Shown here: positions 4,041 through 40,191 of the stretch, piece after piece
How the letters are laid out: the number at the start of each line of letters is the position of its first letter
Position numbering within the stretch: position 1 is the first letter of the stretch
Assembly (NCBI GenBank): GCA_031181145.1
Contig: JAPSLB010000013.1
Span: 1 to 64,000, forward strand
Length of the DNA stretch: 64,000 bases
DNA from: Microvirga sp.
GTDB taxonomy: Bacteria > Pseudomonadota > Alphaproteobacteria > Rhizobiales > Beijerinckiaceae
Direction: 5' to 3'
Made by a program: the position numbers and the translations under genes
The notes under the pieces: model-generated
What the model was told of the DNA's origin: nothing
What the model saw: only the letters and a program-made list of their open reading frames with translations
Database searches by the model: none

Positions 4041-4042
4041 CC

Positions 4043-8296: not shown

Positions 8297-8489
8297 AGCA
8301 CCGGATCCGGGTCCGAGTGCCTGCGAAGGCCATGCCGGGAATCAGAGGGTTCTACCATTCCTGCACGGGGGTGCAAAAGCCGACGGCAACCCTTCAGAGT
8401 CCCGAAGCTTTATCATTTCGTTGATCTTAGAGCAGCCTCCTGCAATTGCCTAGGTCCCGAAAGGCTTGAATTTGTTGGATAAAGCAATA

Positions 8490-9449
8490 GTGAGGTCCAG
8501 GCTTGTCACGGCTTTCGTGCGACTCTTCGCCTTAGCCCTGATTGGGACCTTCCTCCATGCTTCGAGCCTGGCCCAGGACCAAGCCCCCGTGGTGGTCGCC
8601 TCCAAGGCCGATACCGAGGGCGCGCTGCTCGCGAACCTGATCGCCCTTGTGCTCGAGCGGGAGGGAATTCCCGTGGAACTCCGGGTGCAGATCGGACCAA
8701 CCCAGAAGGTCCGCTCCGCCCTTTTGTCCGGCGAGATCGATCTTTACCCGGAATATACGGGCAATGGGGCCTTCTTTCACGGAACGGGCGGCGACCCGGT
8801 CTGGAAATCGTCCGAAAAGGCCTTCGACAGAGTCCGGCGGCTCGATGCCCAACGCCATGATCTCGTATGGCTCGCCCGGGCACCCGCCAACAACACGTGG
8901 CTGATCGCTGTCCGGGGCGATGTAGCCCGGCGGGATGGCCTGACCACCATGGAGGATTTTGCTGCGGCGGTGAGGCGCTCGGCAGATCTCAGGCTGGCGG
9001 CCTCGGTGGAATTCGTGGAAAGCCCGGCCGCCCTTCCATCCTTCGAGAGAACGTACGATTTCCGGTTTCCTCGGGAGAGGATCGTCACTCAGCCGGAAGG
9101 GGACACGATGAAGACCATGCGCGCGGCGGCACGAAATGCCGGCGGCGTGAACGCCGCGATGGTTTATGGAACGGACGGCGCCATCGCCGCCTTCGACCTC
9201 GTGGTGATGAAGGACGTCAAGGGCGCCCAGATCGTTTATGAGCCCGCTCCGGTGATCCGCGCTGTGACCCTGCGGCAGTATCCGAAGATCGCCGAGGCGC
9301 TGCACCCGGTCTTCGACTCCCTGACGACGGCGAAACTCCAGGCGCTCAATGCGGAGATCGTCATCGAGGAGAAGCCGGCGCGGGATGTCGCCGTGCGCTA
9401 TCTCGACGGGCTGAGGGCAGCCAAAGCGGGCTCGCGAACTTCGCCTTGA
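8490..9449 (+). CDS. Orphan osmoprotectant (glycine betaine/choline type) ABC substrate-binding protein
   Basis: A roughly 319-residue periplasmic binding protein of the OpuAC/YehZ (OsmF) family. A signal peptide with hydrophobic core ALALIGTFL ends near SLAQ. Family motifs are ASKADTEGALLANL, GEIDLYPEYTGNG, the PANNTWLIAVRGD segment and MVYGTDGAIAAFDL. It is clearly paralogous to the binding protein at 12350. There is no permease or ATPase beside it, so it may feed the importer encoded 4 kb away. No ATG is available: possible starts are TTG 8466, 8472 and 8475 and GTG 8490. GTG 8490 gives the most typical signal peptide. It is divergent from the response regulator upstream. Confidence 0.88.
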   Translation: MRSRLVTAFVRLFALALIGTFLHASSLAQDQAPVVVASKADTEGALLANLIALVLEREGIPVELRVQIGPTQKVRSALLSGEIDLYPEYTGNGAFFHGTGGDPVWKSSEKAFDRVRRLDAQRHDLVWLARAPANNTWLIAVRGDVARRDGLTTMEDFAAAVRRSADLRLAASVEFVESPAALPSFERTYDFRFPRERIVTQPEGDTMKTMRAAARNAGGVNAAMVYGTDGAIAAFDLVVMKDVKGAQIVYEPAPVIRAVTLRQYPKIAEALHPVFDSLTTAKLQALNAEIVIEEKPARDVAVRYLDGLRAAKAGSRTSP

Positions 9450-9564: not shown

Positions 9565-10311
9565 ATGGCTAGACGAGGGACCAAGGCGCCCATCCTCATT
9601 GTCCTGCATCAGGAACATTCGACGCCCGGGCGCGTCGGACGCCTGCTGGCGGAGCGCGGGCACCGGCTCGATATCCGCCGTCCCCGTTTCGGGGACCCGC
9701 TCCCCGAAACGCTCGCCGACCATGCCGGTGCGGTGATCTTCGGCGGTCCCATGAGCGCCAACGATCCGGACGATTTCATCAAGGCCGAGATCGATTGGAT
9801 CGGCATTCCCCTGAAGGAGGGCAAGCCTTTCCTGGGGCTGTGTCTCGGCGCGCAGATGCTCGCCCGGCACATGGGGGCCGGAGTCTGGCAGCATCCGGAA
9901 GGGCGCGCCGAGATCGGCTACTACCCCCTCGTGCCGACCGAAGCCGGCGAGCGCCTGAGCCAAATCTGGGGCGTCCCCTGGCCGAGCCATGTCTATCATT
10001 GGCATCGCGAGGGGTTCGATTGCCCCCCCGGGGCCGAGACCCTCGCCACGGGCGACGACTTTCCGACGCAGGCCATCCAGGTCGGCGGCAATGCCTTCGG
10101 CCTCCAGTTCCACCCGGAGGTCACGCACGCCATGATCTGCCGCTGGACCGTCGTTGCGGAAGAGCGCCTGTCCACACCCGGCGCGCAGGACCGCATCCGC
10201 CAACTCGACGGACGGTTCCGGTACGATCCGCATGTCTCTCGCTGGATCGACCGGTTTCTCGATCATTGGCTCGATGAACCGCCCGTGGCGAAAACAAGAG
10301 CCAGAGCTTAA
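9565..10311 (+). CDS. Class I glutamine amidotransferase-like protein
   Basis: A 248-residue stand-alone class I GATase. The nucleophile Cys lies in PFLGLCLGAQM, the oxyanion strand in VIFGGPMSAND, and the His-Glu pair in LQFHPEVTH, so the Cys-His-Glu triad is complete. Such stand-alone proteins resemble the GMP-synthase GATase domain and gamma-glutamyl hydrolases of the PuuD/YfeJ kind. They usually hydrolyse glutamine or a gamma-glutamyl amide, but the acceptor here is not predictable. The ATG at 9565 has a good ribosome-binding site (GGAGCGGGATC). It lies tail to tail with the ScfR-like regulator, overlapping it by a few bases at the stop codons. Confidence 0.85.
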   Translation: MARRGTKAPILIVLHQEHSTPGRVGRLLAERGHRLDIRRPRFGDPLPETLADHAGAVIFGGPMSANDPDDFIKAEIDWIGIPLKEGKPFLGLCLGAQMLARHMGAGVWQHPEGRAEIGYYPLVPTEAGERLSQIWGVPWPSHVYHWHREGFDCPPGAETLATGDDFPTQAIQVGGNAFGLQFHPEVTHAMICRWTVVAEERLSTPGAQDRIRQLDGRFRYDPHVSRWIDRFLDHWLDEPPVAKTRARA

Positions 10312-11741
10312 GTCGCGTCGAATTCGAAGGGCGAGATGCCGCGTTTCATCTCGTCGACGATGAGCGCGTGCATCATGGGCGGGGCCGCGCGCTGCGGGCA
10401 GGCGACGCGCTCGCACAGGCGGCAATTGATGCCGATGGGCGTGGCGTCGGCCGCCGCGAGGTCGAGGCCGCGCGCATAGACCAGGCGATGGGCGTATTTC
10501 AGCTCGCAGCCCAGGCCCACCACGAATTGTGGATCGGGCATGCCCCAGGGATTCGAAGCCCGCTTGACGGCGCGGGCCATGGAGAACCAGCGCGAGCCGT
10601 CGGGCAGCTCGACGATCTGGGTCGCCACCTGTCCCGGGGTCTTGAAGGTGGAGTGCAGGTTCCAGAGCGGGCAGGTGCCGCCGAATTGCGAGAAGGGGAA
10701 ACGGCCCGAGGAGAAACGTTTCGACACGTTGCCCGCCGCATCGACGCGCACGAGGAAGAACGGTATACCGCGCGCGCCGGGCCGGGCGAGGGTCGTGAGG
10801 CGGTGCGCTATCTGCTCGAAACTCGCGCCGAAGCGTGCGCCCAGCACCTCGACGTCGTATCCGAGGGCTTCCGCCGCGGCGTGGAACTTGCCGTAGGGCA
10901 TCATGAGCGCTCCGGCGAAGTAATTGCCGAAGGAGACGCGCAGCAAACGACGCGCCGGACCGTCCGTGGGTTCGAGCTTGGCGGCCAGTGCGTCGATGGT
11001 CGAGCGCATCTCCGCGAAGGCGAGCTGATAGGCGGCCTGGAAAGTACGCCCGGACGGATCGACGAGTTCGGAGATCAGGAGCTGGCGGCGATGGTGATCG
11101 TAGCGTCTCAGGTTGTCCGACATCACGTCGATGGGCATGACGCGCACGCGGATGCCGTGCTTGGAGCGCAGGCGCTCTGCGATGGCGAAGAACGGTTCGT
11201 GCCCCGTGACGGCCAAGTCGGAAGCCAGCGCCTCGGCCGCCTCGTCCAGATCCGGAAAATGATTCCTGGCCTCGTGGATCAGTTCGCGAACCCGGTCCAC
11301 CGGGTTGATCTGCGGCGCATCCTCGGCGCGGTCGCGGTCGTTGAGGCTGGGGGTGACGGCCTCGCGCGCGCCGCGCATGGCCTGATAGGCGCGGTAGAGG
11401 CGATTCACGGCATCCACGAGAGAGGGCGCGTTCTCGATGGTCTCGCGCAGCTCGATGCGTGAGACCGGCGCGCTGCGAAAGAGCGGATCGGCGAAGATCT
11501 CCTCCAGCTCCGAGACCGTGCGCTCGTGATCGTCGTTGGCGAATTCGCGCGGATCCAGAGAATAGGCATGGGCCAGACGGATGAGTACTTGCGCGGTGAT
11601 AGGACGCTGATTGCGCTCCATGAGGTTCAGATAGCTGGGCGAGAGCCCGAGTTCCTCCGCCATGCGGGACTGGCTCAGATTGAGCTCCCGGCGCAGGCGC
11701 TTGAGGCGCGGACCGACGAAGAGTTTTCTGCTCTCATCCAT
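10308..11741 (-). CDS. ScfR-type (short-chain fatty acyl) XRE-family transcriptional regulator
   Basis: A 477-residue regulator with an N-terminal XRE helix-turn-helix (about 10-65; RLKRLRRELNLSQSRMAEEL, then SPSYLNLMERNQRP). A central IrrE/ImmA-like region follows (around HHRRQLLISELVDPSGRTFQAAYQLA). The C-terminal domain is Cys-containing (CPLWNLHSTF, INCRLCERVACPQR). This is the architecture of Corynebacterium RamB and Rhodobacter PccR (ScfR family), which respond to acyl-CoA status and control the glyoxylate bypass or propionyl-CoA assimilation. The start at ATG 11741 places the HTH at the N-terminus; the frame stays open upstream but that part is AT-rich and unlike protein. Its promoter shares the word TTTACAGCTT with the aceA promoter, so aceA is a likely target. 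Confidence 0.9.
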   Translation of the reverse strand: MDESRKLFVGPRLKRLRRELNLSQSRMAEELGLSPSYLNLMERNQRPITAQVLIRLAHAYSLDPREFANDDHERTVSELEEIFADPLFRSAPVSRIELRETIENAPSLVDAVNRLYRAYQAMRGAREAVTPSLNDRDRAEDAPQINPVDRVRELIHEARNHFPDLDEAAEALASDLAVTGHEPFFAIAERLRSKHGIRVRVMPIDVMSDNLRRYDHHRRQLLISELVDPSGRTFQAAYQLAFAEMRSTIDALAAKLEPTDGPARRLLRVSFGNYFAGALMMPYGKFHAAAEALGYDVEVLGARFGASFEQIAHRLTTLARPGARGIPFFLVRVDAAGNVSKRFSSGRFPFSQFGGTCPLWNLHSTFKTPGQVATQIVELPDGSRWFSMARAVKRASNPWGMPDPQFVVGLGCELKYAHRLVYARGLDLAAADATPIGINCRLCERVACPQRAAPPMMHALIVDEMKRGISPFEFDAT

Positions 11742-11785: not shown

Positions 11786-11959
11786 TTACAATGCTACTTT
11801 TCTTCCGAAATCTGGCATTGAAACAAAGGCTTCTTCTGGAATTATAACCATAAGACGCCTCGCTGATGCATAGAGATTGTGGCTCTGCGGGGTGCTTTGT
11901 CAACGGATGTAAATACAGGAAGTGGGACGGTGGTCCCCTCGGTCATACGGAGAACGGCC

Positions 11960-12169
11960 ATGCAAAAGACTCGTTTCTGGGTGGTGGGCGGTGAATACAC
12001 CTCCTGCGAATGCGAATCCCTGGTTCACGGCACTGAGCGTGTCGTCGGCCCCTTCGAGAACCGCACCGAGGCCGAGCGCACTTGGCGCATCCTGTCCGAG
12101 GATCACCGTCCGCAGGCCCAAGTGCGCTTTACCATTGCCCAGGAGCCTCCGTCGGGCCTAAGCGCCTGA
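11960..12169 (+). CDS. DUF4170 domain-containing small protein
   Basis: A 69-residue soluble protein with the DUF4170 pattern: FWVVGGEYTSCECESLVHG near the N-terminus, ERVVGPF in the middle and a C-terminal VRFTIA strand. DUF4170 proteins are short, widespread in Alphaproteobacteria and of unknown function. The ATG at 11960 is used rather than the upstream extension because family members begin shortly before the WVVGG motif. It is divergent from the ScfR-like regulator, with a 218-base shared promoter region that is unusually AT-rich. Confidence 0.8.
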   Translation: MQKTRFWVVGGEYTSCECESLVHGTERVVGPFENRTEAERTWRILSEDHRPQAQVRFTIAQEPPSGLSA

Positions 12170-12349
12170 ACAGCCGACAGATCTTCCCGCACTCGCGTCC
12201 ACCGCCGTCACGGGCCGGCGGTGGACGAAAGGCTTCGTGACACGAAATTTTTATCGCCAAGGCCGGGACTCGGAAGCCCTCCCTCTGCTTAAATCGGGGA
12301 CGTGACCTAGAAATAGCCCTGGTGTGCACGCTTATGCCGAGGGGGAAAC

Positions 12350-13264
12350 ATGAGGCCCGTTCTGAAGATTCTTGCGGCCGTTCTGGCCTTGAGCCTGGCA
12401 GCCCTGGGCCCGGCCGGGGCGGACGTCGTCGTCTCCTCCAAGATCGACACGGAAGGATCGATCCTGGGCAACATGATCCTGCTCGTCCTCGAGGATAGCG
12501 GTATCGAGACCCAGGACAGGATTCAGCTCGGCGCAACCCCGGTGGTGCGCAAGGCCATCACCGCGGGCGAGATCGACATCTATCCCGAATATACGGGCAA
12601 CGCGGGCTTCTTCTTCAACAAGGCGGACGATCCGCTCTGGAAGGACGCGGCCAAGGGATACGAGACCGCCAGGAAGCTCGATTACGAGGCCAACAAGATC
12701 GTCTGGCTCGATCCTTCGCCGGCCAACAACACCTGGGCCATCGCGTTGCGCAGGGATGTGGCGGAGGCCAACAAGCTCACGACGCTCTCCGACTTCGGCA
12801 AATGGGTCTCGGAGGGCGGTGAGGTGAAGCTCGCGGCCTCCGCAGAGTTCGTGAATTCCGAAGCGGCCCTGCCATCCTTCCAGAAGGTCTACGGTTTCAG
12901 GATGAAGCCGGAGCAGCTCATCGTCCTCTCCGGCGGCGACACGGCGGCGACGATCAAGGCGGCGGCCGAGAGGATCAGCGGCGCCAATGCCGCCATGGTC
13001 TACGGTACCGATGGCGGCATCGCGCCGTCGGGCCTCGTGGTGCTGGAGGACGACAAGGGCGTGCAGCCGGTCTACGCGCCGGCGCCCATCATTCGCGAGG
13101 CGGTGCTGAAGGACAATCCGAAGATCGCAGATATCCTCAAGCCCGTCTTCGCATCCCTCGACCTGACGACTCTTCAAGGGCTGAACGCCCGCGTGCAGGT
13201 GGGCGGCGAAGCGGCGAAAGCCGTCGCAGCCGATTACCTGAAGTCGAAAGGCTTCATCAAGTAA
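12350..13264 (+). CDS. Osmoprotectant ABC transporter substrate-binding protein (OsmF/YehZ-like)
   Basis: A 304-residue periplasmic protein with a cleavable signal peptide (LAAVLALSLAALGPAGA) and an OpuAC fold. Recognisable segments are SSKIDTEGSILGNM, GEIDIYPEYTGNAGFF, PANNTWAIALRRD and MVYGTDGGIAPSGLV. It binds quaternary-amine compatible solutes such as glycine betaine or choline by family membership; the ligand is not proven. It is the first gene of the importer, with a strong ribosome-binding site (GAGGGGGAAAC) before ATG 12350. The permease, ATPase and second permease follow. It is closely related to the orphan binding protein at 8490. Confidence 0.92.
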   Translation: MRPVLKILAAVLALSLAALGPAGADVVVSSKIDTEGSILGNMILLVLEDSGIETQDRIQLGATPVVRKAITAGEIDIYPEYTGNAGFFFNKADDPLWKDAAKGYETARKLDYEANKIVWLDPSPANNTWAIALRRDVAEANKLTTLSDFGKWVSEGGEVKLAASAEFVNSEAALPSFQKVYGFRMKPEQLIVLSGGDTAATIKAAAERISGANAAMVYGTDGGIAPSGLVVLEDDKGVQPVYAPAPIIREAVLKDNPKIADILKPVFASLDLTTLQGLNARVQVGGEAAKAVAADYLKSKGFIK

Positions 13265-13324
13265 GCGGCCGACACTTCACGTGAAGCAGACGGCAGGTTG
13301 GCCAAGGAAAGACCAAGGTTCGAC

Positions 13325-14527
13325 GTGAGTTCCACGGCATCAAGGACAAACACGTTCGGCGTGGTTCCGCCGCGCCCCGCGCTCTCCCTCGACCATCTGG
13401 GGTTTGCGATTGCCGTTCTCATAGGCGTCGCGCTCTTCGCTGCTCCATTCGCCACGTATCGGGCCACCCGCATCGCGTCCGGCGAGGCGCGCCTCCTGAT
13501 CGAGGCGCTGCCCATTGCCATGGCGGCCGCTCTCGTGCTCGTGGCGCTCGGCGTCGCGATCGGAGCCGTCCTCGTGCGGGATCCCCTCAGCCGCCTCGGC
13601 TCCGCCGTGATCGGTCTTGCGGTCCTTCTCCCCTCTCTCGGCCTGTCCGCAGGATACCTGACACCTGCGGACAACACTTTCGCCCGCGTGTCGCCTTCGC
13701 TCGGGTTCTGGCTGCTGAGCCTGGCGTTCTCGCTGCTCGCCGTCGATGCCCTGGCACGCATGAGACTCGGACCCTATGGGCGGCTCACGGCTTTGGCCGT
13801 CGGCGTGAGCGCCTTGGCGCTTCTGCTGCTCTCCGGCATCTGGGACGATCTCTCGATCCTCAGGGAGTATTACACCCGCGCCGACAGCTTCTGGCGTGAG
13901 GCGCGACAGCACCTCCTGCTTGCCTCCGGCTCCATGGCTGCCGCGTGTCTCCTCGGCGTTCCGCTCGGCATCGTCAGCCACCGGCTGAGAACGCTCCGGA
14001 TCGCGGTGATGCAGGGTTTGAGCATCGTGCAGACGGTCCCGAGCATCGCCCTGTTCGGCCTTCTCATGGCACCGCTGGGCGCCATCGCGGCCAGCGTGCC
14101 GCTCGCTGCGGCCTTGGGCATCAAGGGGATCGGCGCCGCGCCCGCGTTCATCGCGCTGTTTCTCTACGCGTTGCTTCCCATCGTCGCCAACACGATTGCC
14201 GGATTAAGTCAGGTTCCCTCAGCCGTCGTCGACGCCGCGCGCGGCATGGGCATGTCGGCCCGGCAGCGGCTGGTGGATGTCGAGATGCCGCTCGCCCTTC
14301 CGGTGATCCTCGCCGGCATCCGCATCGTGCTGGTCCAGAACTTCGGCCTTGCGACCGTGGCGGCGCTGATCGGTGGGGGAGGCTTCGGCACCTTCGTCTT
14401 CCAGGGCATCGGCCAGACGGCCATCGACCTGGTGCTGCTGGGGGCAATTCCCACGGTTGCGCTCTCCTTCGCCGCGTCCATCGTTCTCGATGCGCTGGTC
14501 GATCTCTCCAAGGGAACGCCAGCATGA
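13325..14527 (+). CDS. Osmoprotectant ABC transporter permease with extended N-terminal membrane region (YehY-like)
   Basis: A roughly 400-residue inner-membrane permease. The N-terminal half (to about residue 190) has several extra hydrophobic helices (for example AIAVLIGVALFAAPF and AVIGLAVLLPSLGLSAGYL). The C-terminal half is a standard binding-protein-dependent permease with the EAA-type loop VVDAARGMGMSARQRLVDVEMPLALPVI. This two-part layout is typical of YehY, one of the two permeases of the YehZYXW/OsmF system. GTG 13325 has AAGG eight bases upstream and is preferred over TTG 13298. It overlaps the ATPase start by four bases (ATGA). Confidence 0.9.
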   Translation: MSSTASRTNTFGVVPPRPALSLDHLGFAIAVLIGVALFAAPFATYRATRIASGEARLLIEALPIAMAAALVLVALGVAIGAVLVRDPLSRLGSAVIGLAVLLPSLGLSAGYLTPADNTFARVSPSLGFWLLSLAFSLLAVDALARMRLGPYGRLTALAVGVSALALLLLSGIWDDLSILREYYTRADSFWREARQHLLLASGSMAAACLLGVPLGIVSHRLRTLRIAVMQGLSIVQTVPSIALFGLLMAPLGAIAASVPLAAALGIKGIGAAPAFIALFLYALLPIVANTIAGLSQVPSAVVDAARGMGMSARQRLVDVEMPLALPVILAGIRIVLVQNFGLATVAALIGGGGFGTFVFQGIGQTAIDLVLLGAIPTVALSFAASIVLDALVDLSKGTPA

Positions 14528-15462
14528 TCGAGATCGATCGTCTCACCAAGCGCTACGGCGCCACCCTCGTGGTTGACGATGTCTCGTTCGCGGTCGAGGA
14601 AGGCACACTCGCGGTCGTCGTCGGCACGTCGGGCGCGGGCAAGTCGACGCTGCTTCGCATGATCAACCGGCTGGTCGAGCCGAGTGCAGGGCGCGTGCTC
14701 ATCGACGGAGAGGATACGCGCGCGATCCCGGAGGACGAGCTGAGACACCGCATCGGCTATGTCATCCAGGGCTATGGCCTGTTCCCGCATCGCAACGTCG
14801 CCGACAACATCGCTACCGTGCCGCGCCTGCTCCGATGGGACAGCAAGAAGGTCGCCCAGCGCGTGGAAGAGCTGCTCGATCTGTTTCAGCTCGAACCGGC
14901 GGAGTTCGCCCACAAATTCCCGCATGAATTGTCGGGCGGCCAGCAGCAGCGGGTCGGCGTGGCGCGGGCGCTGGCTGCGCGGCCCGCGCTCCTTCTGATG
15001 GACGAGCCGTTCGGAGCCCTCGATGCGGTGATCCGCTCCAAGGCCCAGGACGATCTCCTCGCCATCCAGCGCCGGTTGGGGACCACGATCGTTCTCGTCA
15101 CGCACGACATGAACGAGGCCTTCCGTCTCGGCGACCGGATCGCCGTCATGGATCAGGCCCGCCTTCTGCAATATGCGACACCCGCCGAACTCCTGATGCG
15201 CCCGGCCGACGACTTCGTGGAGCGTCTCGTGGGATCCGCGGAGCGGCCCTTCCGTCTGCTCTCCCTGATCAGGGTGCAGGAGGCTCTCGAACCGGGGCAT
15301 GCCGAGGGTGAGCCGATAGCGGCTTCCGAGAGCCTTCACGACGCGCTTTCGCGCCTTCTCTGGACAGGGCGCAAAGCTCTTCCGGTGGCCGATGCCTCCG
15401 GTGCGCTCATCGGTCAGGTCAGCGTCGGCGGCATCCTGCAGCGCGGGCGTCCGCTCCCATGA
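14524..15462 (+). CDS. Osmoprotectant ABC transporter ATP-binding protein
   Basis: A 312-residue ABC ATPase with Walker A GTSGAGKST, Q-loop VIQGYGLFPH, signature LSGGQQQRVGVARAL, Walker B LLLMDEPFGALD and switch His in VLVTHDMNEAF. The last 60 or so residues resemble one CBS-like module (ALPVADASGALIGQVSVGG), as in OpuCA/YehX/ProV-type ATPases, where CBS modules can sense ionic strength. It powers uptake through the two flanking permeases. ATG 14524 overlaps the preceding stop by four bases and its own stop overlaps the next start, so the importer genes are translationally coupled. Confidence 0.95.
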   Translation: MIEIDRLTKRYGATLVVDDVSFAVEEGTLAVVVGTSGAGKSTLLRMINRLVEPSAGRVLIDGEDTRAIPEDELRHRIGYVIQGYGLFPHRNVADNIATVPRLLRWDSKKVAQRVEELLDLFQLEPAEFAHKFPHELSGGQQQRVGVARALAARPALLLMDEPFGALDAVIRSKAQDDLLAIQRRLGTTIVLVTHDMNEAFRLGDRIAVMDQARLLQYATPAELLMRPADDFVERLVGSAERPFRLLSLIRVQEALEPGHAEGEPIAASESLHDALSRLLWTGRKALPVADASGALIGQVSVGGILQRGRPLP

Positions 15463-16211
15463 CACCGGCTTCCTTCGTCCGGCTGACCGCACTGCTCGTG
15501 CTCGCGGCCTTCATCGCGATGCCGCAGGTTTTTGCGTTCCTCTTCGAGCCTTTGATCGCTCCCGGCGCACCGGCGATCTACAATCAGGGCAGCCTGCTCG
15601 TGCTGACGCTCCAGCATCTGCGCACGGTGTGTCTGGCGACGATGGTGAGCACCGTTCTTGCCGTCGCGCTCGGTATCTTCGTCACCCGTCCAGCGGGAGC
15701 CGAATTCCTTCCGCTTTCGCGCAGCCTCGTGAATATCGGGCAGACCTTTCCGCCGATCGCCGTTCTCGCCATTGCCGTGCCGCTCGTGGGCTTCGGTGAG
15801 AAGCCCACCTTCATCGCATTGTTTCTCTACGGTCTGCTGCCGATCTTCGAGAACACGCTGACGGGATTGACCCAGGTTCCCTCGCCGACTTTGGAGGCGG
15901 CGCGAGGCATGGGCATGAACGCGCGGCAGCGCCTCGTGCAGGTGGAGCTTCCGCTCGCGCTCCCCGTGATCCTTGCGGGTATCCGCTTGTCCGTCATCAT
16001 CAGTCTGGGCACCGCGACCATCGGCTCGACGGTTGCCGCCAAGGGGCTCGGCGAGGTGATCATCGCAGGCCTGCAATCGAACAACATCGCTTTCGTCCTC
16101 CAGGGCGGTTTGGTGGTTGCGCTGCTCGCGGTTCTGATCCACGACGGATTGGTGCTGGTCGAACGGGTCGCCGCCAGAAGGCTGGGCGGCTCCCTGAATG
16201 AGGTGTCATGA
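15459..16211 (+). CDS. Osmoprotectant ABC transporter permease (YehW-like)
   Basis: A 250-residue inner-membrane permease with about five or six hydrophobic helices and the EAA loop TLEAARGMGMNARQRLVQVELP. It is the compact partner of the larger permease at 13325 and completes the heterodimeric membrane channel. Both ends overlap neighbours by four bases: the upstream ATPase, and the downstream heme oxygenase at 16208. The second overlap is the join between a transport cluster and a light-sensing cluster. Confidence 0.93.
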   Translation: MTPASFVRLTALLVLAAFIAMPQVFAFLFEPLIAPGAPAIYNQGSLLVLTLQHLRTVCLATMVSTVLAVALGIFVTRPAGAEFLPLSRSLVNIGQTFPPIAVLAIAVPLVGFGEKPTFIALFLYGLLPIFENTLTGLTQVPSPTLEAARGMGMNARQRLVQVELPLALPVILAGIRLSVIISLGTATIGSTVAAKGLGEVIIAGLQSNNIAFVLQGGLVVALLAVLIHDGLVLVERVAARRLGGSLNEVS

Positions 16212-16774
16212 CGCTGCTTGAACGACTGAAAGTCGAAACCAGGCCCGCACATGACCGGATCGAGGCCGCAATGGAACTCGGCCGCTGCATCGCCAGCCGC
16301 GACGCATACAGAAGCCTGCTGATCCGGTTCTATGGCTTCCATAGTGCCTGGGAGCGTTCGGCGGCAGCGGCCGCGCCGGACAGGACCTTCTTCGAAAGCC
16401 GGTGCAAGACGAGGCTTCTCGTCAGGGATCTTGTCGCTCTGGGGCTTGGGGAGAACGAGATCATCCGTTTGCCGCAATGCGATCCTCTCATGCCTCTATC
16501 GAGTTCCGCGGCCGTGCTCGGGAGCATGTACGTGGTGGAGGGATCCACGTTGGGCGGTGCGATCATCGCCCGCCAGGTAGAGCGGAACCTCGGATTCGAC
16601 GGACAGACAGGCTGTGCCTATTTCAGGGGCTATGGGAGAGACAGCGCCGTCATGTGGAAGCAGTTCGGCGCCATGCTTCTGGAGGCGTCCTCTCCCGAGA
16701 CCGAGGTCGTGATCGTCGCGGCGGCGCAAGAAACCTTCCGCGTCATGCATGACTGGCTTTGCGAGGCTCCATGA
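16208..16774 (+). CDS. bphO: Biliverdin-producing heme oxygenase (BphO)
   Basis: A 188-residue heme oxygenase. The proximal His lies in KVETRPAHDRIEAA near residue 15, and the distal helix segment is LGSMYVVEGSTLGGAIIAR, which matches the GSxxGG-type bend over the heme. It cleaves heme to biliverdin IX-alpha, CO and iron, supplying the chromophore for the bacteriophytochrome encoded next. The start overlaps the upstream permease by four bases and its stop overlaps bphP by four bases. A bphO-bphP pair is the common arrangement in proteobacteria, which supports the assignment. Length is usual for BphO. Confidence 0.93.
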   Translation: MTLLERLKVETRPAHDRIEAAMELGRCIASRDAYRSLLIRFYGFHSAWERSAAAAAPDRTFFESRCKTRLLVRDLVALGLGENEIIRLPQCDPLMPLSSSAAVLGSMYVVEGSTLGGAIIARQVERNLGFDGQTGCAYFRGYGRDSAVMWKQFGAMLLEASSPETEVVIVAAAQETFRVMHDWLCEAP

Positions 16775-19008
16775 ACAAAGGGCCGCAAGAGATCGACCTG
16801 ACCGCCTGCGACCGGGAGCCGATCCACATTCCGGGCAGCATTCAGCCCCACGGTCTCCTGTTCGCCCTCTCCCGGGCGGACATGACCTTGACGCATGCGA
16901 GCGCCAACATCGCCGCGGTTTTGGGGATCGATCCGGCGTCGATTCTCGAGAAGCCTTTCCACGAGGTGCTTTCCGGGATCGCCGCGCAGCTGGGAGCAGA
17001 CGTCGCCGAGCCCGTTCCCGTGGGAACGGCACGTTACCTCCGCACCGTCATTCTGCAAACGGATAGGGGCGAGAGGGCCTTCGATGCCGTGGTTTCCTGT
17101 TCGGATGGGCACGTGCTCCTCGAACTGGAGGCGGTGCCCGAGGACACCGCTTCCAGCATCGAGACGCTCTATTCCGCCCTGCGCCGCTTCGTGGAGGAGT
17201 TGCACCTGGCTTCCACGGTCGACCGGCTCTGTCATCTGGCGGCCCAGGACATTCGCCGCATGACCGGCTTCGACCGGGTGCTCATTTATCGCTTCGACGA
17301 GCACTGGAACGGCACCGTGATCGCAGAGGATCGGAACGACGCCCTGCCGTCCTACCTCGATCTGCGCTTTCCCGCCTCCGACATCCCGGCTCAGGCGCGG
17401 GAGCTCTATCGCCGCAACCGGTTACGCATCATTCCCGACGCGAACTACACCCCCGTGTCGATTCAGTCGCACGATCCCGCGCCGCTCGACCTGAGCGATT
17501 CGGTGCTGCGCAGCGTCTCGCCCGTGCATCTCGAATACATGCGCAACATGGGCACGCCGGCTTCCATGTCGATCTCGATCCTGAGGGGCGATGCGCTCTG
17601 GGGATTGATCTCCTGCCATAACAGCGAGCCCCGGCGCGTCTCGCTGCCCACGCGCAATGCCTGCGATTTTCTCACCCGAATCCTTTCGCTGCAGCTGGAG
17701 GCGCGGGAGAATACTGCATTGGCCGATGCCCGCGTGCGGCTGGGGGCCGTACAGGCGCGCCTTCTCGCCCATATGGCGGGGGAAAGTTACTTCATCGACG
17801 GCCTCGTGACCCATCCCGACGACCTGATGCTGCTGGCCGGCGCGCAAGGCGCTGCCATCGTGACGGACGAGCATTGCTGGCTCCTCGGCGGAACACCCAA
17901 GGAAGCCGACGTCAAGGCGCTCTATGCCTGGCTTTCCGAGCACCACCAGGAGGATGTGTTCGCCACGGATCGGCTCGCGGAGCTCTTTCCCGAAGCGCAA
18001 GGCTATGCGGACAAGGCAAGCGGTCTCCTCTCCATTTCCATCTCGAAGGCGCGTTCGAGCTACATTCTCTGGTTCCGTCCCGAACTCGTGCAGACGGTCA
18101 AATGGGGAGGCAATCCGGAAAAGCCCGTGCGGGAAGAGGCCGGAACCTCAGGGCTTCATCCCCGGCGCTCCTTCGAGATATGGAAGGAGACGGTGCGCGG
18201 GCGCTCGGCGGCCTGGGATCGCAGCGCGATCGAGGCGGTGAAGGAACTGCGCAATGCCATCGTCGGCATCGTGCTGCGCCGCGCCGAGGAGCTGGCGAAC
18301 CTGGCCGAGGAGTTGCGCCGGTCGAACAAGGAACTCGAAGCGTTCTCCTATTCGGTGTCGCACGATCTGCGCGCGCCGTTTCGCCATATCGTCGGCTATT
18401 CAGAGCTCCTGAAGAAGCAGGAATGGCCCGATTTGTCGGAACGGGGCAAGCGTTACATCGATACGATCATCGAGGCGGCCTATACCGCCGGCACGCTCGT
18501 CGACGATCTCCTGCGCTTCTCTCAGATGGGCCGCATGGCGCTCAAGCCTCGCTCCGTGGAGGTGAGGGAACTCGTCGAGGACATCCGGCAGAAGCTCGCC
18601 CTCCCGACGGGAGGCCGCCGGATCGAGTGGATCGTCGGTGATCTGCCCGCAATCGTGGCAGATCCGGTTCTCATCCGGCTCGTCTTCGAGAATCTTTTGG
18701 ATAATGCCGCCAAATATTCCCGGATGCGGGATACATCGCGTATCGAAGTGGGTTCCTATCGCGATAACGGGGAGATCGTCTTTTTCGTGCGCGACAACGG
18801 CGTCGGCTTCGATATGAAATATGTCGACAAGCTGTTCGGTGTTTTCCAGCGCCTCCACCGCGTCGAGGAGTTCGAGGGAACCGGAATCGGGTTGGCCAAT
18901 GTTCGCCGCATTGTCGAGAGACATGGGGGACGCAGCTGGGCCGAAGCTCAGCCTGACAAGGGTGCAACCTTCTATATTGCCCTGCCCGAGAGCGAAGGAG
19001 CGGCTTGA
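16771..19008 (+). CDS. bphP: Bacteriophytochrome histidine kinase
   Basis: A 745-residue red/far-red photoreceptor kinase. The biliverdin-attachment Cys is residue 13 (DLTACDREPIHIPG). The PAS domain (about 20-125) has SIQPHGLL. The GAF domain (about 140-320) has the PASDIPAQAR motif near 201-210. The PHY domain (about 325-510) includes the tongue PRRSFE. HisKA has phosphorylatable His about 531 in SVSHDLRAPF, and the HATPase ends with GTGIGLANVRRIV. All chromophore-pocket landmarks are present, so it should bind biliverdin and switch between Pr and Pfr. The start at 16771 is preferred over an in-frame upstream codon because it overlaps the bphO stop. The Rcp1-like regulator follows with a one-base overlap and is the likely phosphorylation target. 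Confidence 0.95.
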   Translation: MNKGPQEIDLTACDREPIHIPGSIQPHGLLFALSRADMTLTHASANIAAVLGIDPASILEKPFHEVLSGIAAQLGADVAEPVPVGTARYLRTVILQTDRGERAFDAVVSCSDGHVLLELEAVPEDTASSIETLYSALRRFVEELHLASTVDRLCHLAAQDIRRMTGFDRVLIYRFDEHWNGTVIAEDRNDALPSYLDLRFPASDIPAQARELYRRNRLRIIPDANYTPVSIQSHDPAPLDLSDSVLRSVSPVHLEYMRNMGTPASMSISILRGDALWGLISCHNSEPRRVSLPTRNACDFLTRILSLQLEARENTALADARVRLGAVQARLLAHMAGESYFIDGLVTHPDDLMLLAGAQGAAIVTDEHCWLLGGTPKEADVKALYAWLSEHHQEDVFATDRLAELFPEAQGYADKASGLLSISISKARSSYILWFRPELVQTVKWGGNPEKPVREEAGTSGLHPRRSFEIWKETVRGRSAAWDRSAIEAVKELRNAIVGIVLRRAEELANLAEELRRSNKELEAFSYSVSHDLRAPFRHIVGYSELLKKQEWPDLSERGKRYIDTIIEAAYTAGTLVDDLLRFSQMGRMALKPRSVEVRELVEDIRQKLALPTGGRRIEWIVGDLPAIVADPVLIRLVFENLLDNAAKYSRMRDTSRIEVGSYRDNGEIVFFVRDNGVGFDMKYVDKLFGVFQRLHRVEEFEGTGIGLANVRRIVERHGGRSWAEAQPDKGATFYIALPESEGAA

Positions 19009-19457
19009 TGCCGGAACTGAAACCGATCCTGCTGGTCGAGGACAACCCGAAGGATCTAGAGCTGACCCTGGCCGCTCTGGAGCAGAGTCAGCTCGCCAAC
19101 GAGGTTGTGGTGGTCCGTGACGGCGAGGAGGCGCTCGATTACCTCAATCGGCGCGGCGCGCACGCGAACCGCAACACCAGCGATCCCGCCGTGGTCCTGC
19201 TCGATCTCAAGCTCCCGAAGATCGATGGGCTCGAGGTGCTGGAGAAGGTGAAGGCGGATCCGCACCTGAAACAGACACCCGTGGTGATGCTCACCTCCTC
19301 CCGGGAGGAGAGCGACCTGGTCAGCAGCTACGAGCTCGGCGTCAATGCTTTCGTGGTGAAGCCTGTGGGCTTTCGTGAATTCTTCGACGCGATCCAGGAC
19401 CTCGGCGTGTTCTGGGCCATCCTCAACGAGCCGCCGCCGCGGCGGGCCGATTCCTAG
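19008..19457 (+). CDS. Rcp1-like response regulator of the bacteriophytochrome
   Basis: A 149-residue receiver-only protein of the phytochrome-partner type. It has acidic pocket ILLVEDNPKD, phosphoacceptor in VVLLDLKLPKIDG, Thr/Ser in VVMLTSSREESD and Lys in FVVKPVGFREF. The extended loop with RRGAHANRNTSDP and the C-terminal GVFWAILNEPPP tail are typical of the Rcp1 family. The ATG at 19008 overlaps the bphP stop (TGATG). It has no output domain, so it presumably passes the phosphoryl group to another protein or acts by protein contact; the kinase-receiver hybrid encoded next is a candidate. Confidence 0.93.
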   Translation: MPELKPILLVEDNPKDLELTLAALEQSQLANEVVVVRDGEEALDYLNRRGAHANRNTSDPAVVLLDLKLPKIDGLEVLEKVKADPHLKQTPVVMLTSSREESDLVSSYELGVNAFVVKPVGFREFFDAIQDLGVFWAILNEPPPRRADS

Positions 19458-19465
19458 GGGCGAGC

Positions 19466-20515
19466 ATGGACCGAACGGCCGCCCCCCAGTCCAGCCGCAC
19501 GCTCCGCATCCTTCTCCTGGAGGACAGCGCGCTCGATGCTGAGCTGGTGACGGAGGCCCTGGCGTCGTCGGGCCTGGCTGTGGCGATCGAGCGGGTCGTT
19601 CTGGAGGAGGATTTCGCCGCGGCGCTCCACAGCGATTCATGGGACCTCGTGCTGGCTGACTATCTCCTGCCCGGCTTCGATGGACTGAACGCTCTTGCCC
19701 TGGTCCGGGAACGCTTTCCGGAACTGCCCTTCGTCTTCGTCTCCGGCGCTCTCGGAGAGGAGGTGGCCGTAGAGGCGCTCAAGCGGGGCGCTACGGATTA
19801 CGTGCTCAAGGACCGGCTGGGCAGGCTGCCGGTCACGGTTCTACGGGCGCTTGCCGAAGCCCGGGAGCGGACCGAGAAGCGTCAGTCCCAGGAAGCCCTG
19901 CAGAAGCTCCTCGACGAGCGGACGGCGCTTCTGCACGAACTCGATCACCGCGTGAAGAACAACCTGCAGCTTCTCCTGTCGTTGATCGGCATCGAGATCC
20001 GCCATGCCGAAGACGAGGCGACGGGCCGGGTGCTGGAACGGATGCGGGAGCGCCTCCAGGCCCTCGGTGCGGCCCATCGCGACCTTTATGACGGAAACGG
20101 ATCGTCCCGGTTCGACGTGAGCAGCTTCGCGCGGGGCCTTTGCGAAGAGCTGACGGCAACCGTCGCTCATCTCACGATCGTCCCGGAATTCGATGTGGAG
20201 GTCATCGAGGTAAAGGCCGCCAAGGCTGCGCCCATTGCGCTTCTCTTCAACGAGATCGTCGTGAACGCGCTTACCCATGCCTTCAGGGAGCGGCACGGCA
20301 AGCTGAAGCTCGCCATGCGGTTGCGCGATGGCCGGCTGCTTTTCCAGCTGTCCGACGATGCCTTTAGTCCCGAGGAAAAGCAGGCCGCTCGGGAGGGCGC
20401 CTCCGGAACTGTGCTGAAAGGGTTGGCGCGTCAGCTCGATGCGAGCGTCGAGTGGCCGAGGGAGGATCCGAAGGTTCTTGTCCGTGTCGTGATGCCAGTC
20501 CAAGATCTCGGCTGA
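19466..20515 (+). CDS. Receiver-HWE/HisKA_2 hybrid histidine kinase
   Basis: A 349-residue cytoplasmic protein with an N-terminal receiver (about 12-130; ILLLEDSALD, LVLADYLLPGFDG, FVSGALGEE, YVLKDRLGR). A HisKA_2 dimerisation region follows, with the phospho-His near 161 in HELDHRVKNNLQLLLSL, then an HATPase with LLFNEIVVNALTHAF. Soluble receiver-kinases of this kind in Alphaproteobacteria often feed the PhyR-NepR-EcfG general stress pathway. Here the phytochrome branch could act on its receiver. The gap to the upstream response regulator is eight bases and a good ribosome-binding site precedes ATG 19466. Confidence 0.9.
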   Translation: MDRTAAPQSSRTLRILLLEDSALDAELVTEALASSGLAVAIERVVLEEDFAAALHSDSWDLVLADYLLPGFDGLNALALVRERFPELPFVFVSGALGEEVAVEALKRGATDYVLKDRLGRLPVTVLRALAEARERTEKRQSQEALQKLLDERTALLHELDHRVKNNLQLLLSLIGIEIRHAEDEATGRVLERMRERLQALGAAHRDLYDGNGSSRFDVSSFARGLCEELTATVAHLTIVPEFDVEVIEVKAAKAAPIALLFNEIVVNALTHAFRERHGKLKLAMRLRDGRLLFQLSDDAFSPEEKQAAREGASGTVLKGLARQLDASVEWPREDPKVLVRVVMPVQDLG

Positions 20516-20516
20516 C

Positions 20517-22661
20517 ATGCACGATATGGACCGTCCCGCAATTGGAGCAAGGCCGCCCAGACCGGATCCCGTTCTCTGGTCGCGGACATCGTTGCGCCAG
20601 GTGCTTTGGGCGCTCGTGTTCGCGCTGACGCTGCCGGCTGTCCTGATCGCCGCCGCAGGGTTCTATTCGGGCTACCGCGCCGAGCGCGAGACCATGGATC
20701 TGCGCCTTCAGGAAACGGCCAGGGCCTTGAGCCGGTCAATCGATCGCGAGATCGAGAAAAGCGAAATGGCCCTGCGGGTGCTCGCTCTCTCTCCCCATAT
20801 CGCCAATGGCGATTTTGCCGCTTTCCACAAGCAGACGCTGGAGGCAGGACTCGCTGGTTCCTCATCGATCTCCTTGATCGAGCCGGGCGGCAAGGTGCTG
20901 CTCAACACGCGCGTGCCCTATGGCTCGCCAGTGCCTGACGGCCGGCGCGAGGGTGTGCTGCTGAAGGTGCAGGAGACCCGTCGTGTCCAGCTGTCCGATA
21001 TTCAGGTCGATCCGGTCACCGGTCAGGTCCTGATTACGATGGGTATGCCGGTCGTCACCGGTGACAGGGTGTCCCATATCCTTTTGGCGGCCATTGATCC
21101 GGGGATCTTCCAGCGGCTCATCTCGGATCAGCGCATTGCCCCCGACTGGAATGCGGCCGTGCTCGACCGGAGCGGGCGCATCGTCGCCCGGTCCCGATCG
21201 CCCGAACGGTTTCTAGGCGAGCTTGCCAACCCTGTCATACGCGACGCCGCGGCTACTTTCTCGGAAGGCAATGTTCAGAGCGTGACGCTCGACGGTATTC
21301 CGGTCCGCACCTATTTCAGCAAGTCGCCCACTTACGACTGGACATTCGTCGTGAGCGTGCCGTACGCGGAGCTCACCGCTTCGTTCCAGCGCTCCTTGTT
21401 CTGGCTCCTGATACTCGCCGGATGCATTCTCATGGGCGTTCTCCTGGCGGCCATTCTCTCGCGCTTCATCGCCAAGCCGGTCGACCGGCTCGTGGCTGCC
21501 GCCCAAGCGCTCGGTACCGGCCGTGACGTCGACGGGACAACGACGCACGTACTCGAGTTCGACACGATTCAGAAGGCTCTGACCGATGCAGCCTCCGACA
21601 TCCGCGAGCAGGAACGGCATCGGGAGGAGGCCCTGGCTCGTATCGCGGAAAGCGAGGCGCGCCTTCGTCTGGCGCTCAATGCGGGTCATCTGGGCTCCTG
21701 GGAGTTCACGCCCTCGACCGGCGCCTTCGTCGCCTCGCCCCAATGCCGCGCCAATTTCGGCCGGAGAGCCGATGAGCCGTTTTCCTATGATGACGTGCTC
21801 GCCGCCATCCATCCCGATGATCGCGCACGGCAGACCGAGGCCGTTGCCCAGGCTCTCAAGAACCGTTCGGATCTTCATGTGGAATACCGTGTCGTCTGGC
21901 CGGATCGCAGTGAACACTGGATCCGTATCAGCGGGCGTGTCCGCGTGGGCCCGGACGGAGGTCTCTCGCTCGTGGGCGTTTCACAAGACATCACGGAACG
22001 GCGGCTGGCCGACGAGCGCCGGGGACTCCTGCTGCATGAGCTCAATCACCGGGTCAAGAACACTCTGGCCACCGTGCAATCCATTGCCGCCATGACGCGC
22101 CGCGCCGCCGAGCAGGGCGATGAGGGCGCCTGGGACGCTTTCCTCGGGCGCGTGCAGGGCTTGGCCAAGACGCATGATCTTCTCACTGCCACTCAATGGC
22201 AGGGCGCTCTGCTGGAAGATGTGTTGAAGAATGAGCTGGAGCCCTATCAGGACGCCATGCGCCAGCGCATTCGTCTGCGCGGCCCGAAGATCAATCTGCA
22301 GCCGAGTGCCGTTCTTGCGCTCGGGCTCGCCGTTCACGAGCTTGCCACCAACGCGACGAAATACGGAAGCCTCACGACGCCGGACGGCAGGATCAACGTC
22401 ATGTGGGCGACCACCCCCACCCTGAATCCGCCCGTGCTGGTCGTGGAATGGGTCGAAAGCGGAGGGCCACCCGTGCAGCAGCCCAGGCGCCAGGGTTTCG
22501 GCACCAGGCTGATTCAACGCGGACTGGCTCAGCAGCTCGGAGGCGAGATCAAACTCGACTTCCAGCCCGAAGGCATACGTTGCGTCATCACCTTCCCGAT
22601 CAAGAACGTGATGGTTGAGACCGAAGAGACGAGCGAGAGCGTCGAGCGATACGCCTCCTGA
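20517..22661 (+). CDS. Membrane sensor kinase: periplasmic Cache, PAS, HWE histidine kinase
   Basis: A 714-residue sensor. The first membrane helix (about 28-50; LVFALTLPAVLIAAAGF) is followed by a periplasmic double-Cache-like region (about 55-290; SLIEPGGKVLLNTR, YDWTFVVSVPYAEL). The second helix is at about 297-322, then a HAMP-like linker. A PAS/PAC domain (about 380-500) carries WIRISGRVRVGPDGG and VGVSQDITERR. The kinase core is of the HWE type, with His about 511 in HELNHRVKNTLATVQS and an ATPase with HELATNATKYGSL. It adds an extracellular chemical input beside the light input. It begins one base after the preceding stop and closes the operon; the ligand is unknown. Confidence 0.9.
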   Translation: MHDMDRPAIGARPPRPDPVLWSRTSLRQVLWALVFALTLPAVLIAAAGFYSGYRAERETMDLRLQETARALSRSIDREIEKSEMALRVLALSPHIANGDFAAFHKQTLEAGLAGSSSISLIEPGGKVLLNTRVPYGSPVPDGRREGVLLKVQETRRVQLSDIQVDPVTGQVLITMGMPVVTGDRVSHILLAAIDPGIFQRLISDQRIAPDWNAAVLDRSGRIVARSRSPERFLGELANPVIRDAAATFSEGNVQSVTLDGIPVRTYFSKSPTYDWTFVVSVPYAELTASFQRSLFWLLILAGCILMGVLLAAILSRFIAKPVDRLVAAAQALGTGRDVDGTTTHVLEFDTIQKALTDAASDIREQERHREEALARIAESEARLRLALNAGHLGSWEFTPSTGAFVASPQCRANFGRRADEPFSYDDVLAAIHPDDRARQTEAVAQALKNRSDLHVEYRVVWPDRSEHWIRISGRVRVGPDGGLSLVGVSQDITERRLADERRGLLLHELNHRVKNTLATVQSIAAMTRRAAEQGDEGAWDAFLGRVQGLAKTHDLLTATQWQGALLEDVLKNELEPYQDAMRQRIRLRGPKINLQPSAVLALGLAVHELATNATKYGSLTTPDGRINVMWATTPTLNPPVLVVEWVESGGPPVQQPRRQGFGTRLIQRGLAQQLGGEIKLDFQPEGIRCVITFPIKNVMVETEETSESVERYAS

Positions 22662-24599: not shown

Positions 24600-25453
24600 C
24601 TAGACGATGAGGAAGTCGGCTGAGGTCATCTTGAGTCCCGCGGAGAGCTTTGCGACGGAGAACTTGCCCGTGCCGCCGGTGCCGTCGGGATCATAGTAGA
24701 GGAGTCCCTGGGCGGAATCGTAGACGATCCGGTCGGTGGCGTCATGTGCGGCGGCGCCCGTCCAGAACATCGATGATCTCAAGCGGCCCACGGCCCCAAG
24801 AGAGGTGAAGACGTCGTTGTGTAGTCTCTGCCGCTTGCCCCATAGAGCCTGTCGTTCCCGTGATCGCCGACAAGACGGTCGTTATCTGCTCCACCATAAA
24901 GGGTGTCGTTGCCCACGCCTCCGAATACGGTGTCTGCGTGCGCTGTTCCGTGGAGGACATCATTCACCGTCATGAACTGGAGCTGGCCGTAGAGAGGTGC
25001 TTCGCCTGTCCGGATGCCTTTCGGACAGTACTGCGACCAATCGATGCCCACGCTGTGGAGAACGGACGCAACGACCGAATTGCTGTTGAGGTCGCCTCCG
25101 GGAAGTCGCCGATAGACATCGAGGCTGTAGGCCAGGTGGGCGGCATCGATGTTCACGGCGTGCTCGACCATCACCTTCCAGACGTCCTCCGCATTGCGGT
25201 CGCCAAGATCCAGCAGGGTGCGATGCCGCTCCTGAAGCGTATCCGGGCCGCGTCTGTCGGGAGACGATGCCAGATCGGCATTGGCGAGCATCCCGAGACT
25301 CCCGTCCGGCTCCAAGCCGCCTCGGATCACCTTCTCAGACAGGACACGGCCCCGGCCGTCGGTGACGGTCTTCACCAGGTAGAGATGATGGAATTCGCTG
25401 TTGATGCTTCCGATCCCGAGGGGCTTGGCTTCGATGGCGATAACGGTCGGCAT
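24600..25453 (-). pseudogene. RTX-type calcium-binding protein, disrupted by an out-of-frame deletion or frameshift
   Basis: From ATG 25453 (ribosome-binding site GGGAGG) the reading frame encodes a typical N-terminus (MPTVIAIEAKPLGIGSINS). A roughly 110-residue domain and RTX nonapeptides follow (VFGGVGNDTLYGGADNDRL). The frame then reaches GASGRD, leaves register and stops at 24779. The conserved C-terminal module (FWTGAAAHDATDRIVYD, LLYYDPDGTGG, GLKMTSADFLIV) continues in another frame to a stop at 24600. The stretch normally present between RTX repeats and this module is absent, so the simplest reading is a deletion near 24815-24830 that joined the halves out of frame. Intact relatives are secreted by type I systems. 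A shortened product from the first frame might still be made. Confidence 0.75.
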
Positions 25454-25636
25454 GGCAGCCTCCCAGTCTTTCGTGGGCAAGACGATGTTGAACATCGACA
25501 AAGGGGGAGTTTTGGCGCGTCCCGCGCCGAACCTTAAGGCCCGTTGCAAGTAAGCGGTAGAGAAACAGGAAACGCGGAAGGATACGCAGCCACTCACCGG
25601 CGGGATCGGCGATACATGCGCCGGGAATATGAGTAT

Positions 25637-39426: not shown

Positions 39427-40191
<765 letters not shown>

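Follow-up and report, generated by a model that had tools for sequence, protein, structure and literature searches.

A conserved gene run in Microvirga, probably one operon, joins an OsmF-type importer to a bacteriophytochrome relay

The first 64,000 nucleotides of contig JAPSLB010000013.1 of a Microvirga sp. assembly (GCA_031181145.1), hereafter the window, contain nine consecutive genes on the plus strand (12350–22661), with an importer half (osmF, yehY, yehX and yehW) followed by a light-signalling half that encodes a heme oxygenase (bphO), a bacteriophytochrome (bphP), a single-domain receiver, a receiver-HisKA_2 protein and a dCache-PAS-HWE histidine kinase. An earlier reading made from the sequence alone (the sequence-only reading) had placed all nine genes on one strand between these coordinates and had listed the junctions from the first permease on as overlaps of 4, 4, 4, 4 and 1 bases and gaps of 8 and 1 bases; both descriptions are exact, and the first junction, between osmF and yehY, is a gap of 33 bases. 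The gene content of the run, its tightness, its conservation, the congruent descent of its two halves and the intact key residues of its proteins are observed directly; a single operon, which would be driven as one transcript from upstream of osmF, is what we consider probable. Co-expression of the importer and the light relay is likely at this level, while control of uptake by light would be a guess that goes beyond it.

The arrangement was followed in 48 Microvirga genomes, with presence scored by matches at set thresholds. A yehW-like permease gene was found in all 48 (the copy of G305 having merely 37% identity), bphO in 41 and bphP in 42. In 39 of the 41 bphO-bearing genomes yehW is directly followed by bphO, the exceptions being G230 and G305, so that absence of the permease–bphO link from close relatives is excluded. 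At the junction itself, yehW and bphO overlap by 4 bases in 33 of these 39 genomes, and the other six have a gap of 67–108 bases (101 bases in G142 and 80 bases in G274, for example). Likewise, bphO overlaps bphP in 38 of 39 cases, yehX overlaps yehW in 45 of 46, and the successive light-gene junctions after bphP measure at most 30 bases in 37/38, 38/38 and 36/37 genomes; the junction between the run and the downstream amidase gene is very variable (median 99 bases, n = 31 measured). Judged by overlapping or abutting junctions that are conserved across relatives, the run has the form of an operon. All nine genes were recovered at an identity of at least 50% in 35 of the 39 linked genomes. The run is interrupted by contig ends in G299 (where the contig breaks within bphP), G311 and G315; G142 has no dCache-PAS-HWE gene at the 50% identity threshold, the dCache gene of G320 seems truncated, judging by the two short pieces that the named locus L089 yields, and the bphP of G237 carries an in-frame stop.

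The association is asymmetric. The bphP copies with at least 59% identity, present in 40 of the 48 genomes, all adjoin this importer, 39 with bphO between and the copy of G070 without it; in G230 and G305, the two genomes whose bphP lies solely at other loci, the copies have 52% and 40% identity, respectively. The importer, on the other hand, is kept in six of the 48 genomes (G183, G196, G209, G244, G269 and G284) in which neither bphO nor bphP was matched. This asymmetry fits a dependence of the light genes on the importer promoter, without proving it.

We built trees of the importer (46 genomes, G305 and G315 being omitted) and of the light genes (38 genomes), excluding proteins with an internal stop and placing the roots at midpoint. 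The two trees have 26 of 35 splits in common, where 200 label shuffles gave at most 2, and among splits with a support of at least 0.95 we found no conflict between them. The genomes with the overlap form one clade with a support of 1.0 in importer and light-gene trees alike. In the importer tree this clade holds 33 genomes, namely 32 with the overlap and G183, in which the importer is followed by the amidase gene and the light genes are absent at the locus; genomes with the gap fall outside it, as do the remaining genomes without light genes. On the simplest account, the light block would already have stood behind the importer when the two main importer clades diverged from their common ancestor. 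It would then have been inherited with the importer and lost several times while the importer was retained. The junction likely changed from gap to overlap, a direction that rests on the midpoint rooting. Since the roots are midpoint roots, gains and losses are inferred here.

The importer half displays the gene order Z-Y-X-W, with two permeases and one ATPase, as in the OsmF/YehZYXW type. The osmF/yehZ gene (12350–13264, plus strand) encodes a substrate-binding protein with an OpuAC domain (185.1 bits, Pfam), which alone in the run passes the cut-off of an NCBIfam model, the OsmF equivalog NF049931 (517.6 bits for a cut-off of 400), and lies near the solved structures 5teu, 5uve and 4nd9, as well as OsmF itself (4wep). 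It is followed on the same strand by the permease gene yehY (13298–14527, TTG start; BPD_transp_1 in Pfam), the ATPase gene yehX (14524–15462; ABC_tran in Pfam) and the second permease gene yehW (15459–16211; BPD_transp_1 in Pfam). A proV-like match of YehX stays below its cut-off (296.6 against 326.6 bits, NCBIfam), and a CBS match in its C-terminal tail is also sub-threshold (12.8 bits against 24). The system is likely an OsmF/YehZYXW-type betaine importer, for which transport of betaine itself is predicted. The term "compatible-solute importer" used in the sequence-only reading is supported as far as the OsmF family match goes, but a role in osmoprotection is not to be assumed from it: the E. 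coli YehZYXW system, which shares the four components and the OsmF equivalog match with the Microvirga run, is reportedly sigma-S dependent (so the title of Checroun and Gutierrez, 2004) and is said to be low-affinity and non-osmoregulatory (so the title of Lang et al., 2015). Unlike the Microvirga run, the E. coli importer presumably stands alone. A second OsmF-like binding protein is encoded about 3 kb upstream of osmF (8466–9449, plus strand), with no permease gene beside it. With 376.6 bits, this protein narrowly misses the OsmF cut-off of 400 (NCBIfam). It has matches in the equivalent position in several relatives, in pieces in L065, and may serve the same permease as an alternative binding protein.

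The light-signalling half, which also lies on the plus strand, starts with bphO (16208–16774), encoding a heme oxygenase for biliverdin synthesis (Heme_oxygenase, 55.2 bits, Pfam) that weakly matches two solved heme oxygenases and has no match to any NCBIfam model. The bphP product (16771–19008) displays a PAS-GAF-PHY-HisKA-HATPase architecture in Pfam, and its alignment with solved bacteriophytochromes spans nearly its whole length, although it does not reach the cut-off of the equivalog model NF041576 (369.6 against 1040 bits, NCBIfam). It also has the biliverdin Cys before the PAS domain and the PASDIP and PRxSF motifs, whose roles we take to be those of bacteriophytochromes. By domains and solved relatives BphP is thus a bacteriophytochrome, not the equivalog named by NF041576, and red/far-red photoconversion is predicted. 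The single-domain receiver (19008–19457; Response_reg in Pfam) is one that we presume to be Rcp1-like.

The receiver-HisKA_2 protein (19466–20515) has a weak ATP-binding half, as seen in Pfam and in a motif alignment. It matches HisKA_2 with 65.7 bits and HWE with 35.0 bits (Pfam), its HATPase_c_2 match falls under the cut-off (25.3 against 27.4), and it lacks the WxE motif, which we take to be the hallmark of HWE kinases. Pfam therefore backs each gene assignment of the sequence-only reading, with the correction that this protein, previously called an HWE kinase, is better described by HisKA_2 and does not belong to the HWE kinases. Two relatives from outside the genus (L156 and L157) have WxE and glycine motifs that are missing from the Microvirga proteins; within the kinase half (19910–20515, plus strand) the glycine motifs are absent in Microvirga and present in L156 and L157. 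The Microvirga protein is possibly a phosphotransfer protein instead of a kinase. Its receiver matches the LvrB model (107.5 bits; solved chain 8vc9), and the kinase half of BphP matches the LvrA model (200.5 bits), but both matches lie far under the model cut-offs (500 and 1200, respectively); from the model names, we take LvrA and LvrB to be a kinase pairing of Leptospira. The last gene (20517–22661) encodes a dCache-PAS-HWE histidine kinase, a predicted membrane sensor, which has the HWE_HK domain (96.9 bits, Pfam), the His and the WxE motif of an HWE kinase. Its top solved relative is 6ph4, a blue-light-activated histidine kinase that we take to be the LOV-HWE kinase of Brucella.

Key residues are kept along the relay. 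The chromophore Cys, PASDIP, PRxSF and H-box of BphP are present in 38 of 38 aligned genus sequences, and His15 of BphO does not vary in 17 aligned sequences and is present in 39 of 39 genus sequences. The phospho-acceptor Asp of the single receiver is kept in 38/38 sequences, as are the receiver Asp and the DHp His of the receiver-HisKA_2 protein (38/38), while the dCache-PAS-HWE kinase retains its His in 35/35 and the W and E of WxE each in 34/35 aligned sequences. With its key residues kept, the light relay looks functional.

A candidate promoter was found upstream of osmF. When 45 upstream regions were aligned, a block about 35–70 bases upstream of osmF proved to be conserved across the genus; in the window it consists of TCTG, 18 bases and CCTA(A/G)AA (12284–12312, plus strand). 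The strict form TCTG-N17-19-CCTA(A/G) occurs in 27 of the 45 regions, and the block is also kept in G209, G284, G244 and G269, which lack the light genes. Its sequence is unlike both sigma-70 and EcfG promoters, and we infer that it acts as a promoter. The motif was rejected as a regulon-wide signal, with 2 matches in the source genome against 5 for a reversed control pattern. An EcfG-type promoter at osmF was rejected as well: with GGAAC-N15-19-CGTT, which we take to be the EcfG consensus, the sole match in the window lies at 39455, for 2.06 matches expected by chance.

Beyond the genus, 80 named bphO loci were compared, 17 from Microvirga and 63 from elsewhere, several of the 63 having short upstream flanks; neighbour matches below 50 bits were dropped. 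Among the matches listed, the best bphO identities (61–85%) belong to the 17 Microvirga loci, and the importer–light link is seen in 17 of these 17 and in none of the 63 others. Beside those 63 there is no OsmF, YehY or YehW match, generic ATP-binding cassette (ABC) ATPase matches to the YehX query being found near some, and bphO-bphP-receiver units without an importer nearby occur in several other genera, again among the matches listed. A family sample gave 51 bphO genomes from outside the genus, with surroundings inspected in four. In an order sample of 377 genomes (E-value cut-offs of 1e-40 for bphP and 1e-35 for yehW), 26 genomes besides the source genome hold both genes, and bphP and yehW are adjacent in none of the 26. 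In two of them the distance between an osmF importer and a different bacteriophytochrome gene is less than 12 kb, the two being either divergent with one long open reading frame between (G614) or on the same strand with several unrelated open reading frames between (G361); we considered an independent importer–phytochrome linkage in these other families and treated it as probable coincidence. The sequence-only reading had described importer and bphO-bphP-regulator as known units and their fusion as unusual. Both views hold, the fusion being seen in one genus only in the samples used here.

The explanations that we weighed against each other overlap in part, as the first two alternatives below are versions of a single operon. 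The light genes could be mere passengers, placed behind the importer for its useful promoter with no functional tie between light and betaine. In favour of this are the six genomes that keep the importer alone at the thresholds used, the light cassettes that occur without the importer in other genera (among the matches listed), and the finding that no Pfam DNA-binding domain in any of the nine proteins points back to the importer. However, the overlap is kept in all 32 light-gene carriers of its importer-tree clade (the 33rd overlap genome, G315, is absent from the tree), and within the overlap clade bphP was never found apart from the importer, save for G299 with its contig end. We regard such a passenger placement as rather unlikely.

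Alternatively, light quality could set osmoprotectant uptake via this relay, an idea that we find doubtful. It has to face a run without a DNA-binding output, the absence of the EcfG consensus from osmF and the title that calls E. coli YehZYXW non-osmoregulatory. The conserved genomic fusion nevertheless speaks for it, and so does Pseudomonas syringae, in which a bacteriophytochrome is described as anticipating drying by raising water-stress functions beforehand (Hatfield 2023, as described in PMC12573638 and PMC12627116).

Several observations weigh against the single operon that we favour. The importer and the light genes are separate in G230, G305 has a different importer, and in G070 bphP here comes after yehW, the genome as a whole giving no match to bphO at the cut-off used. 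Flanking gene order is likewise conserved in the genus, and therefore adjacency alone is weak evidence for a shared function. No consensus EcfG site lies near osmF, and the promoter scan, which is blind to types other than sigma-70, found none at osmF either. In addition, six deep-branching genomes have the gap of 67–108 bases before bphO, which could hold a promoter, and fourfold-site conservation peaks at codons 81–100 of yehW (z of +3.0, where BphP reaches +3.8), which may mark an internal promoter. The gap and the peak would suit two abutting transcription units with a bphO promoter within yehW. Nevertheless, the last 25 codons of yehW are average in fourfold conservation (0.58 for an overall mean of 0.58, over 9 columns), and the end of yehW carries a ribosome-site-like GAGGTG run ahead of the ATGA overlap (16200–16211, plus strand), with GAGG at that place in 20 of the 33 overlap genomes. 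Between 12000 and 22800 we found no sigma-70-like site, for 1.3 expected, and three weak terminator-like matches, for 6.8 in shuffles; one of these is a 5-pair stem on the plus strand (15523–15536) near the start of yehW. A strong promoter or terminator within 15459–16771, which the sequence-only reading had named, along with independent expression of the two halves, as a refuting result, thus receives no support from the sigma-70 and terminator scans or from the fourfold sites, all of which leave other promoter types unseen. Two abutting units seem improbable to us. That the importer supplies a compound needed by the light pathway, an option raised in the sequence-only reading and favoured by the adjacency alone, is very hard to credit, as bphO-bphP-receiver units of several other genera have no OsmF, YehY or YehW beside them among the matches listed, the family that OsmF matches is one of glycine betaine binding and biliverdin is made from heme.

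In a single operon, a promoter upstream of osmF would place the importer and a complete red/far-red relay on one transcript. The heme oxygenase would provide biliverdin for BphP as the light sensor. Phosphate would be handed onward through the single receiver and the receiver-HisKA_2 protein, and the dCache-PAS-HWE kinase would feed in an outside chemical signal. As a DNA-binding domain is found in none of the nine proteins, the output of the relay would most likely act in trans and not directly on the importer promoter, plausibly reaching the PhyR-NepR-EcfG general stress pathway and readying cells for drying. In the source genome, NepR is clustered with PhyR-like and sigma-like genes, one of each (G000:C45:34493-35261), and a LOV-HWE kinase of Brucella is described as phosphorylating PhyR in the light (PMC8092228). 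Stress output is therefore the most economical guess, although we put it forward tentatively. Like the Microvirga run, the Brucella system has an HWE kinase, and its route to PhyR is of the kind that we propose for the run (PMC8092228), but its sensor is a blue-light LOV domain whereas the Microvirga kinase has dCache-PAS. A light-tuned regulon within one operon, in which dawn light would load compatible solute before drying and the dCache kinase would gate the response by an outside cue, is a further step that we think unlikely as it stands.

Known systems share parts of this arrangement. Ramlibacter tataouinensis, a soil bacterium of a semi-arid region for which light and drying have been linked by the authors, has a putative operon hmuO-bphP1-BRR-BHK, whose genes for a heme oxygenase, a bacteriophytochrome, a CheY-like regulator and an atypical hybrid kinase follow one another as in Microvirga, and a mutant in the hybrid kinase, which occupies the matching position, is described as resembling the bacteriophytochrome mutants (PMC6848086). 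Unlike in Microvirga, no importer and no dCache-PAS-HWE gene are mentioned with the operon in its description (PMC6848086), and the strain is reported to be without opu-type ABC systems and BCCT betaine transporters (PMC3164672). P. syringae bphOP1 is similarly a heme oxygenase–bacteriophytochrome operon with a proposed anticipation of drying, but in the account of bphP1 as cotranscribed with bphO there is no clear candidate receiver and no importer is mentioned (PMC5654926). A combination of importer and phytochrome was not found in searches of open-licence articles from PubMed Central (CC0, CC BY or CC BY-SA), a scope in which reports in subscription journals could be missed. Drying anticipation as an ecological idea is already published; a possible hard-wiring to an importer may be new.

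Upstream of the run, a small DUF4170 gene (11921–12169, plus strand) lies just ahead of the osmF promoter region, and an ScfR-type regulator with HTH, IrrE-like and short-chain acyl-CoA regulator domains (10311–11741, minus strand) is divergent from the run. The window also holds an isocitrate-lyase family gene (25959–27548), and in many relatives a match to it with about 30% identity sits between the ScfR-type regulator and osmF. The window also contains a large gene pair (2067–7678, minus strand) encoding a CHASE2-type adenylate cyclase-like protein and a FecR/TPR/outer-membrane-receptor-like protein, as judged by eye from the translations, and a protein with RTX calcium-binding repeats (24779–25597, minus strand).

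Little is settled about what bacteriophytochromes do in soil bacteria that do not photosynthesise, and a run that extends across a genus gives a simple test of whether light sensing is wired to water-stress protection outside Pseudomonas. Natural controls exist within the genus, in the form of genomes with the gap, genomes with the overlap and importer-only genomes without bphO or bphP. Altogether, most of the genus keeps the arrangement, which may represent a hard-wired link between light sensing and preparation for drying.

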